DNA of 64,000 bases from Rikenellaceae bacterium. Its GTDB lineage: Bacteria; Bacteroidota; Bacteroidia; Bacteroidales; Rikenellaceae. This document shows positions 49,757 through 58,300 of the stretch, in pieces. Made by a program: the position numbers and the translations under genes. How positions within the stretch are numbered: position 1 is the first letter of the stretch; each line of letters opens with the position of its first letter. Below the pieces are notes generated by a model. It was given only the letters and a program-made list of their open reading frames with translations, was not told the origin of the DNA and made no database searches. The stretch is from contig SUZH01000008.1 of assembly GCA_015060045.1 (NCBI GenBank), forward strand, positions 36,092-100,091. The letters run 5' to 3'.

Positions 49757-49785
49757 GCCCTACCGTATTGCTAAAATTCAATAAG

Positions 49786-52700
49786 ATGCGTCTGCGATCC
49801 CTGTTGATATCGTTTGTGGCGATGAGTGTAGCCCTATGCGGCTATGCTCAGTCGCCCCATTGCCAGGTGGAGCACTTCTCGCGCGAGTTGGCATCGCGTT
49901 ATGTGGAGGCGATCGCGCAGGATCAGTCTGGTTTTATTTATCTCGGTACACGTAACGGCCTTTGTCGTTACGACGGCCATGAGTTCCGCTTCTTCAAGAG
50001 CTACCCGGGAGATGCCTGCCGCTTGTCGCACAACCGAATCAATACGATCAGCGTCAGTTCGTCGAATTACCTCTGGTGTCTGGCGCACGATTTAAAATGT
50101 TATCTGTTCGATCCCGAAACGGAGCGCTTTTACGATCCGTTGTCGGTGGCGGAGGATAGGGATACCAATTCCCCCCCCCTGCTGATTCAGCAGATATACA
50201 CACTTCCTCAAGGTATTACGTGGCTTGTAGGGGAAGAGTGGGCCGTCCGAGTCGATGAGAAGATCCTCCGATTGGATGCCCTCTCTGCCGAGGCGTTGAC
50301 CTGCTACCGCATCGGCAGCCCGCAGTTGGCCGGTACACACGTGGTGTCAATCTGCATGGATAGCGTCGGGAACGAGTGGCTATTGACCGATGAGAGCGTG
50401 CGGGTCTTTGGTGAGGAGAAGCGTATCGAGCAACCGGGTGCAGTTGCGATGTGTGTGGCCGAGGAGGCGGCCTGGTCGGTTGGCAAGGACGACACGATAT
50501 CGCGCTATGCGAATGGAGCAGTCTCGATGTGTGTGAACGAAGATGCTGTCTGGCTGATTGGTAAGAACGGCACGATGTTGCGCTATGCGAATGGTGCGGT
50601 CGAGCCGCGTCATATCCGCATGCCGAAGGCACAAGGTGCGGTACGTAATATTCAGGCCATAGCGAAGGATAAAATCGGCATATCGACCGACTTGGGTATC
50701 TCGATTTATGATGCGACCTACAATCGCTTCGACTTTGTCCCTATTGAGGGGGGATGCGTGAATCGGATCTATAGCGATTCGCAGGGCGTGTTGTGGATTT
50801 TTACCGATCGTGAGGGATTGTTTCGCTACAATCCGGCGAGTGGCGAACTTGCCTATCTGAACAACCGCGCAGAGGATGCTTTGCCCGAGAATGAGAACGA
50901 AATCTTCTGGCACGAGGATAGCGAGGGGCGTATCTATGTCGTTCCGACACGAGGCGTGTTGTCGTATTTCAACGCCCGCACGAATGCGCTCGAGCTGCTT
51001 ACACCCGAGGACCAGGAGGTGCCGTACAAGGGGCATACACGTCGCTACCTGGTCGATCAGCAGCGTAATATCTGGTGTGTGGAGGTGGAGGGTGTGACGC
51101 GTATTTCCATTCAACCCGGTGCATTCCATCACCATGTACTCAATACGCAATCCGATACGCGGGCGATCCACTTTGATCGCCACGAACGCATCTGGTTCAG
51201 TTCGCGTGACCGTACGATTCATATCTACGACAATCGCTTGAATGCTGTGGGCTATCTGCGTGCGGATGGGCGGATTCAATCTTCGCCTTGCCGGTTCGGC
51301 TCGCCCATTTACTGTTTCCATGAGGATGAGAATGGCGTCATCTGGATGGGTGCCCGTTTTGAGGGACTCTATCGACTGACGCCGATCGATGAAAAGAGCT
51401 ATCGGGTCGACCATTTCCGCCACGATCCGCAGGATGCCTACTCGCTGAGCAACGATAGCATCTACGATCTGCACCGCGATCGCTACGGTCGTCTGTGGGT
51501 GGCTACCTACGGCGGTGGCTTGAATCTGGTGGATGAAGGTGGAACGACACCCCGTTTCCTGCATGCCGGTAACGAAATTCCCTTCCCGGTGGAGGAGTAT
51601 AGTCAGTTGCGTGTGATCGAGGAGACACCGAATTTCCTGTTGGTCGGAACTACGAACGGCTTGGTGCTCTTTCAGCATGCGCCTAAGACCTTCTCGTCGA
51701 GTTCGTTTAGTTGCTATTCCGTGCAGGAAAATGCCGATGGACTGCTCTCGAATGATGTGCGTGATATTCACTATACGTCGGACAGCGAGGTCTATCTGCT
51801 TTCGTTTGCAGGTGGTTTGAGTCGCCTGCATCTGGAGAAAGATGGCACGGTCAGCTTCGAAAATTTCACCCAAAAAGAGGGCCTTCCGTCGGAGCAGGTG
51901 TTGGCTATGATTGAGGATGCTGGTGGTGATCAGTGGATTTTGTCGGAGACGATGGCCTTTCGTTTCGATCCCGAGACGGCCTACTTCGAGCATTACGGCG
52001 AGCGTTATAGCAGCGAAAACTACTACTTCAGTGAGGCCAAACCGTTGCTGCATGGCGATCGTCTGCTGGCGGGTACCACGGATGGTTTTTGTGTCGTGCC
52101 CACGAATGAGCCCTTGAGCTATTTTGAGCCCCCGCTGGTGCTGACCGAACTCACGATTGGCAATCATACCGAGCGTCGCGGTATCAGCCGCATCGGCGAG
52201 TTGAAGTTGAAACCCGACGAACGTGATGTGCAACTTTCGTTTGCAGCGTTGGATTATGTCAATCCGGCTACGATCCGTTATGCTTATCGCCTGGAGGGGG
52301 TACACAAAGCGTGGCAACACCTGGGCAAGCAGCGCAACATCCACTTCGTGGATCTGGATCCGGGTGAGTACACGTTGGTCATTCGCTCGACCAACAGCAA
52401 TGGCCGCTGGATCGAGAATGATTACCGCCTGAAGTTGGTCGCAACACCCACGTTCTGGGAGACAAATTGGGCATGGGGACTCTATTTGATCGGTATTTTC
52501 CTGGTGATTTATCTCTGGATGCGCATGTCCCAATTGCGCTCGAGGGTGCAGATGGAGCAGCAACTGAGTGACATTAAATTGCGCTTCTTTACCGATATTT
52601 CGCACGAGCTGCGTACGCCGCTCACGTTGATCTCGACCCCGATCGAGATGTTGCTCAGCCGCGAGAAACTCACCGATGAGGGGCGCGACCAGATGCTCGT

Positions 52701-54126
52701 TGTGCGCAACAATACGCAACGTCTCATTACGCTGGTCAATCAGATTCTCGACTTCCGCAAGATCGAGAACAAGAAGATGCGCCTGGTCTTGGAGTATACC
52801 GATGCCTTGGCTGTGGTGCGTCGTGCGATGGCGCATTTCAATTTGTTGAGCGACGAACACAACATCGATTACCAACTCGATTGTCCGGAGGGACCGATTG
52901 AGGGGTGGGTCGATCGCGATAAATTGGAGAAGATCCTCTTCAATCTGTTGTCGAATGCCTTCAAATATACGCCCGACGGCAAGTGCATTACGGTGCGTGT
53001 AGCATCGACCGAACAAGGATTGCAACTGGCTGTGATAGATGAAGGTATCGGCATCGATCCGAGTATGCAGACGCGTCTTTTCCAGCGTTTTGAGAGCCTT
53101 TCGCAAGCGAACCTTTTTAAGCCTTCGTCGGGCTTGGGTTTGTCGCTTGTCTCGGAGTTGGTGCAACTGCTCGGCGGAAAGATTCAGGTGGAGAGTACAC
53201 CCGGTGTGGGAAGTCGTTTTACGGTCCAAATGCCTCTCGCGAAGGAGGCCTTTGCCTCGCTCCCGAATGTCGATTTCTTGCTCGGCGAAGAGCAGCCCAA
53301 GGGTCGTTCCCTGGCTTCGTTGGAGGCAGCCGAGTCGCATGTCGGCGGTCATGATAAGGCCGGTCGCCGAACGACGATTTTGGTGGTGGAGGATAACGAC
53401 GAACTACGCACGATGTTACGCACGATCCTCGCGGATGAGTATCAGGTGTTGGAGGCTACGCAGGGCGAGGAGGGTCTGCGGTTGGCGCGTGAGCAGCAAC
53501 CCGATCTGGTGATCAGCGATGTGCTGATGCCCGTGATGGATGGCTTGGAGATGGTGCGCCGCATGAAGGAGGATCCGCAGACGGCGCATCAGCTGGTGAT
53601 CCTGCTCTCGGCCAAGGCTTCGCCCGATGACCGTATTCAGGGCCTGGAGACGGGTGTGGATGATTATCTGCCAAAACCTTTCCCTGCGAGCTACTTGTTG
53701 GCGCGTGTAAGGTCGCTGCTGGAGCGTCGTCGCGAGTTGCAACAACGCTTGTTGGCGCAGCTGACCTCGCCCGAAATGGCAGTTGATGAGGATAACTACG
53801 TGTCGCCGGAGGTGCTCTTCCTACAGCAGGCGACGGCCGCCGTAGAGCGACATCTGGACGATTGTGAATGGACGATCGAGGACTTCGCGGCCGAGATGTG
53901 CCTGTCGCATACGGCACTCTTCCAGAAACTCAAGTCCACGGTGGGGCTCTCGCTCGTGGAGTTTATCCGCGAAATTCGCCTTAAAAAGGCGTGTCAGCTG
54001 ATTGAATCGGGACACCATAACATTGCCACGGTCAGCTACATGGTGGGCTTCTCGGATCCGAAATACTTTACGCGTGTCTTTAAGAAACGCTTTGGTATTC
54101 CGCCCTCGCAATGGGGTGAAAAGTAA
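49786..54126 (+). CDS. Hybrid two-component system regulator (sensor-kinase-receiver-AraC in one protein)
   Basis: The ATG at 49786 gives a signal peptide (MRLRSLLISFVAMSVALCGYA). The 1446-residue protein has an N-terminal periplasmic double propeller (many reg_prop repeats, e.g. SQGVLWIFTDREGLFRYNP), a Y_Y_Y domain (about 760-860), a membrane helix near residue 900, HisKA (ISHELRTPLTL, His about 940), HATPase (NLLSNAFKYT; SGLGLSLV), receiver (LVISDVLMPVMDG, Asp about 1244; YLPKPF) and a C-terminal AraC HTH (FSDPKYFTRVFKKRFG). In Bacteroidota such proteins sense glycan fragments and switch on PULs. Adjacent pectate lyases suggest a pectin signal. It lies 29 bp after tricorn. Confidence 0.95.
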   Translation: MRLRSLLISFVAMSVALCGYAQSPHCQVEHFSRELASRYVEAIAQDQSGFIYLGTRNGLCRYDGHEFRFFKSYPGDACRLSHNRINTISVSSSNYLWCLAHDLKCYLFDPETERFYDPLSVAEDRDTNSPPLLIQQIYTLPQGITWLVGEEWAVRVDEKILRLDALSAEALTCYRIGSPQLAGTHVVSICMDSVGNEWLLTDESVRVFGEEKRIEQPGAVAMCVAEEAAWSVGKDDTISRYANGAVSMCVNEDAVWLIGKNGTMLRYANGAVEPRHIRMPKAQGAVRNIQAIAKDKIGISTDLGISIYDATYNRFDFVPIEGGCVNRIYSDSQGVLWIFTDREGLFRYNPASGELAYLNNRAEDALPENENEIFWHEDSEGRIYVVPTRGVLSYFNARTNALELLTPEDQEVPYKGHTRRYLVDQQRNIWCVEVEGVTRISIQPGAFHHHVLNTQSDTRAIHFDRHERIWFSSRDRTIHIYDNRLNAVGYLRADGRIQSSPCRFGSPIYCFHEDENGVIWMGARFEGLYRLTPIDEKSYRVDHFRHDPQDAYSLSNDSIYDLHRDRYGRLWVATYGGGLNLVDEGGTTPRFLHAGNEIPFPVEEYSQLRVIEETPNFLLVGTTNGLVLFQHAPKTFSSSSFSCYSVQENADGLLSNDVRDIHYTSDSEVYLLSFAGGLSRLHLEKDGTVSFENFTQKEGLPSEQVLAMIEDAGGDQWILSETMAFRFDPETAYFEHYGERYSSENYYFSEAKPLLHGDRLLAGTTDGFCVVPTNEPLSYFEPPLVLTELTIGNHTERRGISRIGELKLKPDERDVQLSFAALDYVNPATIRYAYRLEGVHKAWQHLGKQRNIHFVDLDPGEYTLVIRSTNSNGRWIENDYRLKLVATPTFWETNWAWGLYLIGIFLVIYLWMRMSQLRSRVQMEQQLSDIKLRFFTDISHELRTPLTLISTPIEMLLSREKLTDEGRDQMLVVRNNTQRLITLVNQILDFRKIENKKMRLVLEYTDALAVVRRAMAHFNLLSDEHNIDYQLDCPEGPIEGWVDRDKLEKILFNLLSNAFKYTPDGKCITVRVASTEQGLQLAVIDEGIGIDPSMQTRLFQRFESLSQANLFKPSSGLGLSLVSELVQLLGGKIQVESTPGVGSRFTVQMPLAKEAFASLPNVDFLLGEEQPKGRSLASLEAAESHVGGHDKAGRRTTILVVEDNDELRTMLRTILADEYQVLEATQGEEGLRLAREQQPDLVISDVLMPVMDGLEMVRRMKEDPQTAHQLVILLSAKASPDDRIQGLETGVDDYLPKPFPASYLLARVRSLLERRRELQQRLLAQLTSPEMAVDEDNYVSPEVLFLQQATAAVERHLDDCEWTIEDFAAEMCLSHTALFQKLKSTVGLSLVEFIREIRLKKACQLIESGHHNIATVSYMVGFSDPKYFTRVFKKRFGIPPSQWGEK
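50437..50592 (+). repeat. Tandem 78-bp in-frame duplication in the sensor propeller
   Basis: Units 50437-50514 and 50515-50592 encode GAVAMCVAEEAAWSVGKDDT...RYAN and GAVSMCVNEDAVWLIGKNGT...RYAN (residues 218-243 and 244-269), and GAV starts a third time. Similar at the nucleotide level too (CGCTATGCGAATGG occurs twice), so it is recent relative to other blades. Confidence 0.85.
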
Positions 54127-54142
54127 GCATCGGCCGATGCAG

Positions 54143-54172
54143 AAAAAGGGGGCTTGCGAGCCTCCTTTTTTT
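54143..54172 (+). terminator. Terminator of the hybrid regulator gene
   Basis: AAAAGGGGGCT(TGCG)AGCCTCCTTTTTTT, 17 bp after the stop codon. Confidence 0.8.
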
Positions 54173-54194
54173 GTGCCGGTGATCGTTACCCTGC

Positions 54195-54235
54195 AAAATA
54201 AAGGGAAACATCCTCGCAAACGGAGGATGTTTCCC
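54195..54235 (-). terminator. Intrinsic terminator of the candidate small RNA
   Basis: 13-bp perfect stem, 7-nt loop, TTTATTTT tail on the minus strand; on plus the tail is not T-rich. Confidence 0.7.
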
Positions 54236-54284
54236 TACTAACTAACTTCAGCCTGATGATGAGACCTATATCGGGGCTCAACTT
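54195..54284 (-). ncRNA. Candidate small RNA of about 90 nt between convergent genes
   Basis: On the minus strand a promoter-like GATCTTTG (54291-54298) is followed by about 48 nt without any ATG-led reading frame. Then comes a perfect 13-bp hairpin GGGAAACATCCTC(CGTTTGC)GAGGATGTTTCCC and TTTATTTT, an intrinsic terminator. The unit is independent of both neighbouring genes, which end on either side of it. It could instead be the leader of a lost susC-like gene. No expression evidence is available from sequence. Confidence 0.45.
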
Positions 54285-54290
54285 CAAAGG

Positions 54291-54348
54291 CAAAGATCAC
54301 GACTTTTTAGGATAAAAAGGTGTACATTTTTACCGAAAAGGTGGACAT
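54291..54348 (-). promoter_or_regulatory. Promoter with 21-bp-period direct repeat (likely activator site)
   Basis: Minus strand: ATGTCCACCTTTT (54336-54348) and ATGTACACCTTTT (54315-54327) repeat with a 21-bp period, two helical turns. The inner copy covers the place where -33 TTTG should be, and GATCTTTG (54291-54298) is the -7-like box. This is the layout of an AraC-type activated promoter; the adjacent hybrid regulator carries an AraC domain. Confidence 0.5.
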
Positions 54349-54415: not shown

Positions 54416-55900
54416 CTAGGGACGCGTCATCGCCTCGAGGTAGACCTCCAGGTTGGTGTAGCCTTTATCGCTTAATGTGAAGGCGTTACCGTCGGTTGCC
54501 GATTTCGGATTCAACCCCTGCTCGCGCTCCCACCAGTCGGGCATACCGTCGCCATCCGAGTCGCGCAACGCTTTGCGCGAGATATCCCCGTCGTGGAGTT
54601 TGCACCAGGGCGAATCTTCGCCTGCGGGGATTACGTCCTCCGGCAGATCGATCAAGCCCGGATGTTGGGCTGCATCGGCCGAAATCGAGCCCATGTAGGT
54701 AGCCGTACCGGTGCGAGTCTCGTCGATGATGCGGCGATCAATCGCATCGCGGTGCTTCGAGCAGCCGGCCCCATCGAGTACCAAGCCATAGGCCTCCTCG
54801 GCCGTGTGGGTCGTGATGTGATCGGCCTCGAGCGGTTCGCTGAGCCGGATCTGTCGTTTTACCTCCTCGGTGTAGGTGCCATCGGTCTGGTCGGGGTTGA
54901 TCTGGGCGTAGACGCCCTTCGTCCAATTATCGCGACTCACCTCTTGGTAGCCCTCCATGATGTTGCCGTCGATGAAGAAACGTCCCCAGATGTGCTCCAT
55001 CGGTTTCCAGCCGTTGAACGAACCATCACGACGGGTAACGTACTGCGTGGTACGAATGCCGATTGCGCAGATGCGGTAGCCGACGGGCGAATCCTTCGGG
55101 GTGGCCGGACCGGGTTTGTAGTAGTTGTTGATGAGGTTGGCCTTCATGCCTTCGCCGCCGTAGCAACCTGCTCCGGCCCAATTGTAGATGACGTTGTTGC
55201 GGATGTCGATCCACTCGCGCGTCTGGGTCGATTGGTGCGGCCCGAGGCGTGGCGTGCGGCTGTCGTGGTGTGCCAGAAGGTTGTGGTGGAACGAAGCTTT
55301 CGCACCGCCCCAAATGGCGCCATAGCCGTGGCTGCCCTTCTTGTGGCCGGCGTTGCGCAGGCTCTCCGAAATCAGACACCACTGCACCGTGAGGCGCTCG
55401 CCGCCATAGACCGAGCAACACTCATCGACCGACCAGCTGATCGAGCAGTGGTCGATGATCAGGTCCTCACTCTCCGAACTGCCCAGCCCATCGGGATCAC
55501 GGCGGCTGTAGTTGCCGACACGGAAGCGCAGGTAGCGCATGATGACATTACGGGCGCGAATCGTCACCGGGAAGCGGGCAATGCAGATGCCCTCACCCGG
55601 GGCAGTTTGTCCCGCTACGGTGAGATCACCCTCGGTGATGCGCAGCGGCGCGTTGAGGAAGATCGTGCCCGCAACGTCGAAGACCACCGTGCGAGGTCCC
55701 TGCTGCTCGAGGGCGTAGCGTAACGTTCCCTCCTGCATGCCGTCCTCGAGGGTCGTGACATGGTAGACCTTACCGCCGCGTCCGCCCGAAGCGTAGCGGC
55801 CAAATCCCTCGGCGCCCGGGAAGGCGGGCAGGCGCTCACCTGCGGCAAAGGCCGTCAGCGGCAGTAAGAGCCATAACAGGCTATAGATGTATCGCTTCAT
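54416..55900 (-). CDS. Secreted pectate lyase, PL1 family
   Basis: The ATG at 55900 gives a signal peptide (MKRYIYSLLWLLLPLTAFAAG); the longer track ORF would overlap the upstream gene. The 494-residue protein is a right-handed beta-helix: LPAFPGAEGFGRYASGGRGG, AGQTAPGEG, NVIMRYLRFRVGN and DLIIDHCSISWSVDE are PL1 hallmarks, with acidic calcium ligands. It cleaves polygalacturonate by beta-elimination. An Asp-rich DSDGDGMPDWWERE motif follows, a dockerin-like or thrombospondin type-3-like calcium repeat, in the last 50 residues. It lies 11 bp after the PL10-CE8 gene, so they form an operon. Confidence 0.92.
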   Translation of the reverse strand: MKRYIYSLLWLLLPLTAFAAGERLPAFPGAEGFGRYASGGRGGKVYHVTTLEDGMQEGTLRYALEQQGPRTVVFDVAGTIFLNAPLRITEGDLTVAGQTAPGEGICIARFPVTIRARNVIMRYLRFRVGNYSRRDPDGLGSSESEDLIIDHCSISWSVDECCSVYGGERLTVQWCLISESLRNAGHKKGSHGYGAIWGGAKASFHHNLLAHHDSRTPRLGPHQSTQTREWIDIRNNVIYNWAGAGCYGGEGMKANLINNYYKPGPATPKDSPVGYRICAIGIRTTQYVTRRDGSFNGWKPMEHIWGRFFIDGNIMEGYQEVSRDNWTKGVYAQINPDQTDGTYTEEVKRQIRLSEPLEADHITTHTAEEAYGLVLDGAGCSKHRDAIDRRIIDETRTGTATYMGSISADAAQHPGLIDLPEDVIPAGEDSPWCKLHDGDISRKALRDSDGDGMPDWWEREQGLNPKSATDGNAFTLSDKGYTNLEVYLEAMTRP

Positions 55901-55911
55901 GTAGTTCGCGT

Positions 55912-58050
55912 TTAGTATGCCAATACGTGCCACAGCTCGCGGATCTTGCGCTCGGGATCCCACTTGCCGTCAAAGGTCCAGCGCGCGTTGAGGTTGTAGT
56001 AGGCGGGCTTCTCCTCCGACTCCTGCAGGTTGTCGTTCATCCAGCCGCTATGACCTCCCTCGCGCGTGCAATCGTTGTAATAGACGCGTAAGCCCCACGG
56101 GCAGGGATCGAGTACCTTGTCCGAATAGGCGTAGTGGATGTTGCCGTCGAGCACGTTTTTCGAGAAGTGGCAATTTTGCAGGAAGAACTGCGAATCGTGG
56201 TGGTAACGACCCAGGAGCGTCGGCGAGGCGGCGTCAAACTCCGAATCGGTAATGACGAGCTTCTTCGACTTATCGCCACGGCCGTCATGCCAGATCATGG
56301 CGCGACTATCGCCGTAGAAGCGGGTACGGGTGACGAAGCACCAACCGCGTGGACAGAGGAAATCGACACCCGGACAGCGCAGGTAGAGGTCGGCGTGGTA
56401 GTACATGCCACCTGCATCGCGGGCCCAGAGCGAGAGGGCATCGTTGCCGTCGGCCCATACATTCGAGTTGATGACGATCGTGCGTGTGGCGCGGCCGAAG
56501 ATGGACATCTGGTGGCGCGTGGTCTTCTCGACCGTGGTGCCGTAGTTGTTGTAGACCGTTAGGCCGCTGATTATGCAGTCGTCGGCCCCCTCCTGAATGA
56601 CGATGACGCCATTCCCCACGGGCTTGCCTTTGTACTCCTTGATGCGGCGGTTGTCCGATACCTCGGCGTAGATGATCTGCGTGGCCTCGCGATCCTCGCC
56701 AACCAGTACGATGTTGGGCTTGTCGATAATTACCTTCTCGTTGTAGGTGCCCTTCTCGATCAGAATCTTGAAGGGTTCGGTCGGCTGATCAGGAGCCTTT
56801 TCGATGGCTGCCTGGATGCTTTCGCCCGCCTTGACGATGACATCAAAGGCGGCGCGATCGACCTTCGGAAGGCGATTGAGCTGGATCGTGCCGTTCTCGT
56901 TGCCGCCCTTGGAGTGGAGGTCAATCTGCACCTTATGTTTCGGATCGAATCGCTCGGCCCACTCCTCATAGAGGGGGTAAAGCTCGGCGGCACGGCTGCC
57001 GTACCAGCTGTAACCCGTGCGGCGCTCCAGACCGATCTGGTCGAGGCGACGACGCAGAATACCATCGCGGTCGCACACATAAGGCTCGCAGTACTCAAAA
57101 TCGTAGAAACGACCCCACAAGGGAAGATTGGCCGAGGCATCCTCTACGAGTTTCGCATCGCGACGCTCACCCGGACGCCAACCCGTGCGCACGTAGCGCA
57201 CGCCGGTCAGCTTATAGGTGTCGAACCACTTCATGGCGCCATGGATGGCGGCCTTTACGCGCTTCGAGGGCTTGGGGAGCGACATCAGCAGCTTGACAAT
57301 CGCGGCACTCTCCTGCGTGCAGTACGAGGCCAACTCGAAAGCGCGTGCGGGTGCGGGTGCGAACGTATCTTTGTAGTGCTGCTGACACCATACCGTCGGC
57401 TCTCCGTCCACGAAGATTTGGCACTTGAGGATGCAGTCGATGCCCTTGTCGAAGGCTGTGGCAACCTGCTTGCGGGTGGCCTTGTCGATCAAATCACCCT
57501 CATAGGGGCTCTGCTCGTTGCGGATGTCGTCGAAAATCTCCAGGATGTTGACGATTGCATCGTCGTTGAAGGTGATGTGGGCATGATAACCCTCGGTCTT
57601 CGGCCAGATTTGAGGCCAACCGCCATTTTCGTATTGGCCGTCGAGGAGGTACTTCAGACCTGCTGTGAAGGCTGTGCGGTAGCGCTCCTCGCCTGTGGCT
57701 TGGTACAGACGGGCCAGGAAGATCATTTGCGACGTCGTGGCGCCGTTGTCGATCGTCGAATCATCGACACGCGTCTTTGCGGCGATGACTGCCTCACGCT
57801 CGGCGTCGGTCAGGCGGCGAGCCATATCGGTGTTTTTGGGCCATGCACCCGATACACGCTGGTAGAGCAGGATTTGATCACCGATGCGACGAGCTTCGTC
57901 CGATTGGAAGAACTCCTTGCGCGTCTCGCGCATGACATTGCGTTGCGGACGCAGGCGTTGCGCCAAAGCCGTTGAGGGCAGCAGCAGGGCTACCAAAAGC
58001 GTAAGTGCCCCTGCGCGGAGGGTGCACCCGATGCGGGAAAAGGTCTTCAT
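55912..58050 (-). CDS. Fused pectate lyase (PL10) and pectinesterase-like (CE8) protein
   Basis: A 712-residue secreted protein (signal MKTFSRIGCTLRAGALTLLV...). Residues about 35-370 are the PL10 (alpha/alpha) domain: QRVSGAWPKNTDM, DDSTIDNGATTSQM and GGWPQIWPKTEGYHAHITFNDD. Residues about 390-712 are a CE8-type beta-helix (ILIEKGTYNEKVIIDKPNI). A Asp in GVDFLCPRGW and Arg in LGRYHHDSQF sit where pectinesterases have DFIFG and LGRPW, so the active site is divergent. Together the domains could remove methyl groups and cut the chain. It heads the PL10-CE8/PL1 operon. Confidence 0.87.
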   Translation of the reverse strand: MKTFSRIGCTLRAGALTLLVALLLPSTALAQRLRPQRNVMRETRKEFFQSDEARRIGDQILLYQRVSGAWPKNTDMARRLTDAEREAVIAAKTRVDDSTIDNGATTSQMIFLARLYQATGEERYRTAFTAGLKYLLDGQYENGGWPQIWPKTEGYHAHITFNDDAIVNILEIFDDIRNEQSPYEGDLIDKATRKQVATAFDKGIDCILKCQIFVDGEPTVWCQQHYKDTFAPAPARAFELASYCTQESAAIVKLLMSLPKPSKRVKAAIHGAMKWFDTYKLTGVRYVRTGWRPGERRDAKLVEDASANLPLWGRFYDFEYCEPYVCDRDGILRRRLDQIGLERRTGYSWYGSRAAELYPLYEEWAERFDPKHKVQIDLHSKGGNENGTIQLNRLPKVDRAAFDVIVKAGESIQAAIEKAPDQPTEPFKILIEKGTYNEKVIIDKPNIVLVGEDREATQIIYAEVSDNRRIKEYKGKPVGNGVIVIQEGADDCIISGLTVYNNYGTTVEKTTRHQMSIFGRATRTIVINSNVWADGNDALSLWARDAGGMYYHADLYLRCPGVDFLCPRGWCFVTRTRFYGDSRAMIWHDGRGDKSKKLVITDSEFDAASPTLLGRYHHDSQFFLQNCHFSKNVLDGNIHYAYSDKVLDPCPWGLRVYYNDCTREGGHSGWMNDNLQESEEKPAYYNLNARWTFDGKWDPERKIRELWHVLAY

Positions 58051-58224: not shown

Positions 58225-58226
58225 TG

Positions 58227-58300
58227 TGACACCGACAGGACTCAAACCTGTAACCTTCTGATCCGTAGTCAGATGCTCTATTCAATTAAGCTACGGTGCC
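58227..58300 (-). tRNA. tRNA-Arg (anticodon ACG)
   Basis: Minus strand: acceptor GGCACCG/CGGTGTC, D-arm GCTTAATTGAATAGAGC, anticodon arm TCTGACTACGGATCAGA with ACG, T-arm ACAGGTTTGAGTCCTGT, discriminator A. The wobble A is normally edited to inosine by TadA. CCA is not encoded. Confidence 0.95.

Follow-up and report, generated by a model that had tools for sequence, protein, structure and literature searches.

The minus strand of the 64-kb window (the whole stretch of DNA analysed) carries, between the gene for a hybrid two-component regulator (HTCS) and a PL1 gene, an element that is very probably a conserved, independently transcribed small-RNA gene and not a relic. The features expected of a small-RNA gene, namely a promoter of its own, a conserved structured RNA and an intrinsic terminator, are all present at the sequence level, and the sequence directly shows that the RNA gene is conserved, that it is linked to the HTCS and how its operator is arranged. 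The preliminary description had offered two readings, a short RNA made by the neighbouring regulator or the leader left behind by a lost susC. The first is well supported by the operator geometry, the strict co-occurrence with the HTCS, the conserved core and the covarying hairpins, whereas the second did not hold.

Layout of the element on the minus strand

The element runs on the minus strand from 54348 to 54193. A direct repeat with a 21-bp period comes first, then a -7 box and, after about 50 nt, a terminator hairpin of 14 perfect pairs, so that the promoter, the hairpin and the AraC-type repeat are present on this strand as had been claimed. The distal operator half-site TGTCCACCTTTT (54336..54347) stands in a register common to five species and two susC promoters, and the proximal half-site TGTACACCTTTT (54315..54326) lies 21 bp from it. 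They are followed by the -7 box GATCTTTG (54291..54298), whose spacing from the distal half-site was compared in six promoters, and no TTTG was found at the expected -33 position. The small RNA itself is about 95 nt long (54193..54287, minus strand) and was delineated by the match to covariance model R1, the genome search with model R2 and its fold; both ends are estimates, the 5′ end from the -7 box and the 3′ end from the terminator. It is made up of a 5′ hairpin TGAGCCCCGATATAGGTCTCA (54260..54280), in place of which each relative has a hairpin of different sequence, a conserved core AGGCTGAAGTTAGTTAG (54238..54254) recognised by column identity and presumed to be the target-pairing region, and an intrinsic terminator hairpin (54202..54236) with a U-rich tail to 54193. 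The terminator hairpin reads AGGGAAACATCCTC-CGTTTGC-GAGGATGTTTCCCT, with 14 of 14 positions paired, and is followed by TTTATTTTG. The RNA from 54287 to 54193 folds at -34.7 kcal/mol (z = -4.9).

Exact copies of TGTNCACCTTTT in the 64-kb window are confined to the two operator repeats, and with up to one mismatch there are four matches against 0.76 expected, a number reached in 1 of 100 shuffles. A generic promoter/terminator scan stayed at chance level, with 3 terminator-like sites against 3.1 expected; the element rises above chance because it is conserved, with the same layout in five species and covariation in its hairpins. It is present as a single copy in its genome.

Conservation among Alistipes genomes

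The genome of the window (G000) is accompanied by four other Alistipes genomes bearing the small RNA, labelled G020, G026, G033 and G125. A plain DNA search of the genus showed this layout once more, in G020. Covariance model R1, whose only sources were G033 and G026, recovered the window RNA at 54195-54284 (E = 6.5e-5), as well as the RNAs of G020 (E = 2.6e-8) and G125 (E = 2.6e-7). With model R2, strong matches were obtained in 5 of 180 Alistipes genomes, one in each of the four relatives, and these are the same five, and the only five, that were returned by a search of the 180 genomes with the HTCS sensor domain (E ≤ 1e-150); as the five are related MAGs, this co-occurrence does not amount to five independent events. 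The repeat and the hairpin, whose conservation among strains the preliminary description had named as part of its test, keep the same layout in all five species.

The hairpin sequences differ among the five species with compensatory changes. In an alignment fitted to the model, and thereby favouring the structure, both sides had changed in 12 of 15 base pairs with every cell paired, compared with at most 57% in slid controls. All five RNAs fold better than their shuffles (z from -3.0 to -6.2). The 17-nt core AGGCUGAAGUUAGUUAG is nearly invariant across the five RNAs, with a mean column identity of 0.95 versus 0.59 in the remaining columns. When about 85,000 species representatives were scanned for exact copies of the core, three Alistipes MAGs came up, which are G033, G026 and G125; two had been recovered from the caecum of goat and water deer, and the third from the rectum of water buffalo. 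On visual inspection no start codon is common to the five RNAs, and a one-base deletion in G020 disrupts the reading frame across the core. The best Rfam hit scored 20.4 bits where the gathering score is 55, so nothing stood above threshold, and a search of a plasmid collection for the element gave no relevant match. Weak R2 matches were rejected, those in the genus (E = 1e-4 and worse) being unrelated terminators on inspection, and those in other Bacteroidales being a pair of gene-end terminators in G464 and a start-codon leader read in antisense in G324.

Predicted targets of the conserved core

Read as its reverse complement, CUUAACUAACUUYAGCCUAU, the core looks like a leader at a translation start (AACUAAC-AGCCUAUG), a likeness that came to notice through the weak match in G324, which lies antisense to a leader of this kind. 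In G000, three gene starts carry the compact form AACTAAC-N0..3-AGCCTATG, those of a pectate lyase and two DUF4992 genes, all within one pectin locus (C14:122-142 kb). This locus contains two susC, one susD, two DUF4992/DUF4957 proteins and a pectate lyase family 1-like protein, the lyase being called from its sequence with no Pfam match. Elsewhere, in the other 179 genomes, the compact form was found only at the orthologous lyase start in G033 and inside the G125 RNA, a count whose weight is limited by the shared ancestry of the genomes; it was not found in the gene starts of G020, G026 or G125. AACUAAC is common in the leaders of G000 generally, and looser versions of the compact form also occur in genomes without the RNA.

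When pairing energy was ranked over starts taken as -28..+5, the C14 lyase came second of 1462 genes. After per-gene normalisation, the top 15 included two susC and the top 30 three, counts that 1 and 2, respectively, of 220 dinucleotide-shuffled cores also attained; the mean z of susC was as low in 6 of 220 shuffles, and its median rank (34/220) was not significant. Scans in wide windows (-250..+30 and -55..+12) gave no enrichment. The modest enrichment of susC starts among the predicted targets is suggestive only, because the wider windows are null and -28..+5 was settled on once the resemblance was known. We give about even chances to the proposal that the core pairs at translation starts in an anti-translation role.

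The RNA might instead be real and HTCS-linked without pairing at translation starts; its core would then serve as a structural element or as the binding site of a protein, either an RNA chaperone or the HTCS regulator itself, and the RNA would act as a decoy. The core is conserved almost to the letter, yet no target site is kept in all five genomes, and a weak stem GGCUR/YAGUU is possible within it, both of which would suit this reading. Its complement is nevertheless start-codon-leader-like and the best sites cluster in carbohydrate-use genes; we regard this reading as unlikely. A regex motif look for an RRM protein such as RbpB gave no clear candidate and was too coarse to mean absence.

Neighbouring genes and synteny

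The HTCS gene (49768..54126, plus strand), whose true start codon is uncertain, encodes a Reg_prop propeller, Y_Y_Y, HisKA, HATPase, receiver and AraC-type HTH domains, and its product, a classical HTCS and membrane sugar sensor, is the presumed activator of the small RNA. It converges with the PL1 gene, of pectate-lyase type (54416-55963, minus strand), and the small RNA is placed between the two. An orthologous HTCS adjoins the RNA in 5/5 genomes, with the RNA always 3′ of it, convergent and a few tens of bases from its stop codon; the remaining neighbour is PL1, a tRNA or an MFS gene. In G020 the orthologous HTCS stands directly beside the RNA layout, with the same tricorn-like protease and AraC gene as neighbours.

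The preliminary description had placed the RNA between the regulator and PL1 genes. In the window, PL1 and a partner pectic acid lyase/pectinesterase-like gene (together 54416-58050) are located between the RNA and a tRNA-Arg (58226-58300, minus strand), whereas in G026 and G033 the tRNA-Arg lies between the RNA unit and a sigma-54-type regulator, without lyase genes. Because PL1 and its partner are missing at that spot in G026 and G033, the link to PL1 is accidental. The lyase pair was seen between the RNA and tRNA-Arg in G000 only, suggesting a local insertion beside the tRNA gene.

The position so close to the HTCS stop codon, always convergent, would also fit a cis-antisense RNA or a 3′-end element of the HTCS gene, exerting negative feedback through convergent transcription or 3′ UTR pairing. 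A cis-antisense RNA needs no conserved sequence, yet the 17-nt core is kept while the flanks diverge, and in G000 the terminator-like hairpin of the HTCS gene (54140-54173) precedes the RNA complement; such feedback is quite improbable. With A and T runs on its flanks, this hairpin separates the HTCS stop codon from the terminator of the small RNA and is probably the terminator of the HTCS gene. A near-identical copy of it occurs at G000:C14:319352-319398.

Operator and probable control by the HTCS

The published motifs of HTCS regulators consist of direct repeats spaced 21 bp apart on average (PMC3878776), and the operator of the small RNA, a direct repeat of about 21 bp upstream of the -7 box, fits this format. 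Measured from the first base of TCCAC in the distal half-site to the last base of TTTG, the five RNA promoters and a susC promoter of G125 all have a spacing of 55-56 nt. A matrix made from these six sites was scanned over G000 (1,958,149/1,958,768 bases), where the RNA promoter scored 38.1 bits, a value inflated because the window site is in the training set, and the next position 18.0. The fourth match (17.1 bits), which is outside the training set, has its TTTG correctly placed and lies upstream of a distant susC that is 92% identical to its G125 orthologue, with GH51- and galK-like genes divergent in both genomes. Besides the RNA promoter, this GH51/galK-side susC is the only well-placed match in G000. 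Because the operator is common to the two, a regulon of two is suggested, comprising the small RNA and a distant operon devoted to a glycan that contains arabinose or galactose. Control of the small RNA by the HTCS is likely, and we infer that the HTCS binds at these sites.

The susC/susD operon divergent from the GH51-/galK-like genes is found at G125:C72 (L198 7589-12909) and G000:C15:146083-153929; it has the HTCS-type operator, and no HTCS was seen adjoining it in the sequence examined. Its susC in C15 is not among the predicted targets, as would be expected if the module spares its own operon.

The match of the operator and -7 box to a real HTCS-type susC promoter is what could be expected if a susC had once been here and its regulated leader alone remained. 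None of the five species, however, has a susC here, the hairpins covary, the core is conserved, and susC leaders of the same operator class are unlike the RNA; the unit is under selection as an RNA, and the relic given as the second option in the preliminary description is very hard to sustain. Regularly spaced TGT-CA repeats are also present at IS21-like element ends, which the TGTNCAC repeats recall, but a mobile-element end or a chance arrangement has next to no credibility, and the IS21-like end was rejected given the lack of an adjoining transposase, the single copy in the genome and the same place and layout in five species.

Proposed role and comparison with known systems

The small-RNA gene and the adjacent HTCS would, in the mechanism proposed, form one module. 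The HTCS would sense its glycan, probably a pectin side chain with arabinose or galactose in it, and its AraC-type domain would bind the 21-bp direct repeat and bring RNA polymerase to the -7 box. The transcript, a structured RNA of about 95 nt, would end at the hairpin terminator and present, between two hairpins, the core AGGCU-RAA-GUUAGUUA, complementary to the AACUAAC-type leaders. Pairing would block ribosome entry on the mRNAs of other polysaccharide utilization loci (PULs), here first those of a distant pectin locus, while the HTCS would directly activate its own distant susC/susD operon, and the outcome would be a ranking of carbon sources. Activation, pairing and repression by the module are what we infer from the sequence, and we lean slightly towards the RNA being an HTCS-activated trans-acting sRNA that represses competing PULs. 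The fuller scheme, in which an HTCS with a dedicated RNA activates its own susC/susD by DNA binding and silences competing pectin/susC mRNAs post-transcriptionally, giving PUL prioritisation, is offered tentatively, at somewhat less than even odds.

The FopS RNAs of B. thetaiotaomicron repress susC translation by pairing at translation-initiation regions (PMC11697453). Compared by description, the Alistipes RNA is similar to FopS and GibS (Bacteroides thetaiotaomicron; PMC11697453, PMC7366714) in being a small intergenic RNA with a conserved single-stranded seed and a terminator, and in its complementarity to translation-initiation regions, which in FopS/GibS are mainly those of susC and other PUL mRNAs. 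It differs in that there is one RNA copy per genome whereas FopS genes are multicopy, in that the core lies between two hairpins whereas the FopS/GibS seed is at the 5′ end, and in that its promoter has an HTCS-type operator whereas FopS genes have canonical promoters and respond to bile. The DonS-type PUL antisense RNAs of Bacteroides fragilis (cited in PMC7366714) are likewise PUL-related and of similar size, but they are cis-antisense to susC, and no susC lies opposite the Alistipes RNA. The 21-bp direct-repeat operator is shared with HTCS-controlled PUL promoters (PMC3878776), but the operator beside the HTCS would drive a noncoding RNA here, not susC. In the proposed reading, the module is also like BT0366 (PMC3404733), an HTCS that induces one PUL with concomitant repression of others; BT0366 was found at repressed loci by ChIP-seq, and the repression was attributed to DNA binding, not RNA.

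A literature search, with subscription papers and preprints outside its scope, found no small RNA under an HTCS and none in Alistipes. If true, the module would join two layers described apart, transcription control by HTCS and sRNAs that block susC translation, and a gut bacterium could rank its foods by an RNA route to the prioritisation reported for BT0366. The way in which gut Bacteroidota shut off second-choice glycan loci has been described as a large gap (PMC3404733), and a regulator with its own small RNA would, if true, be a compact answer to it.

Other susC leaders

A first idea for targets, the paralogous susC at C7:61902 and C14:30973, with long leaders carrying 11 contiguous complementary bases, was dropped; the site is missing in the other four sRNA-bearing genomes and its energy is unremarkable. 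A complement search in these four genomes gave two matches besides the RNA genes, compared with nine for a reversed control. Several Alistipes genomes without the RNA have a susC family (MKNLT...) with starts of the form AACTAAC...AAAGCCTATG. The paralogous pair of G000 (C7:61500-61900 and C14:30600-30970) has a conserved common leader, about 280 nt long and marked by a G-run and inverted repeats, which is possibly a structured regulatory leader.
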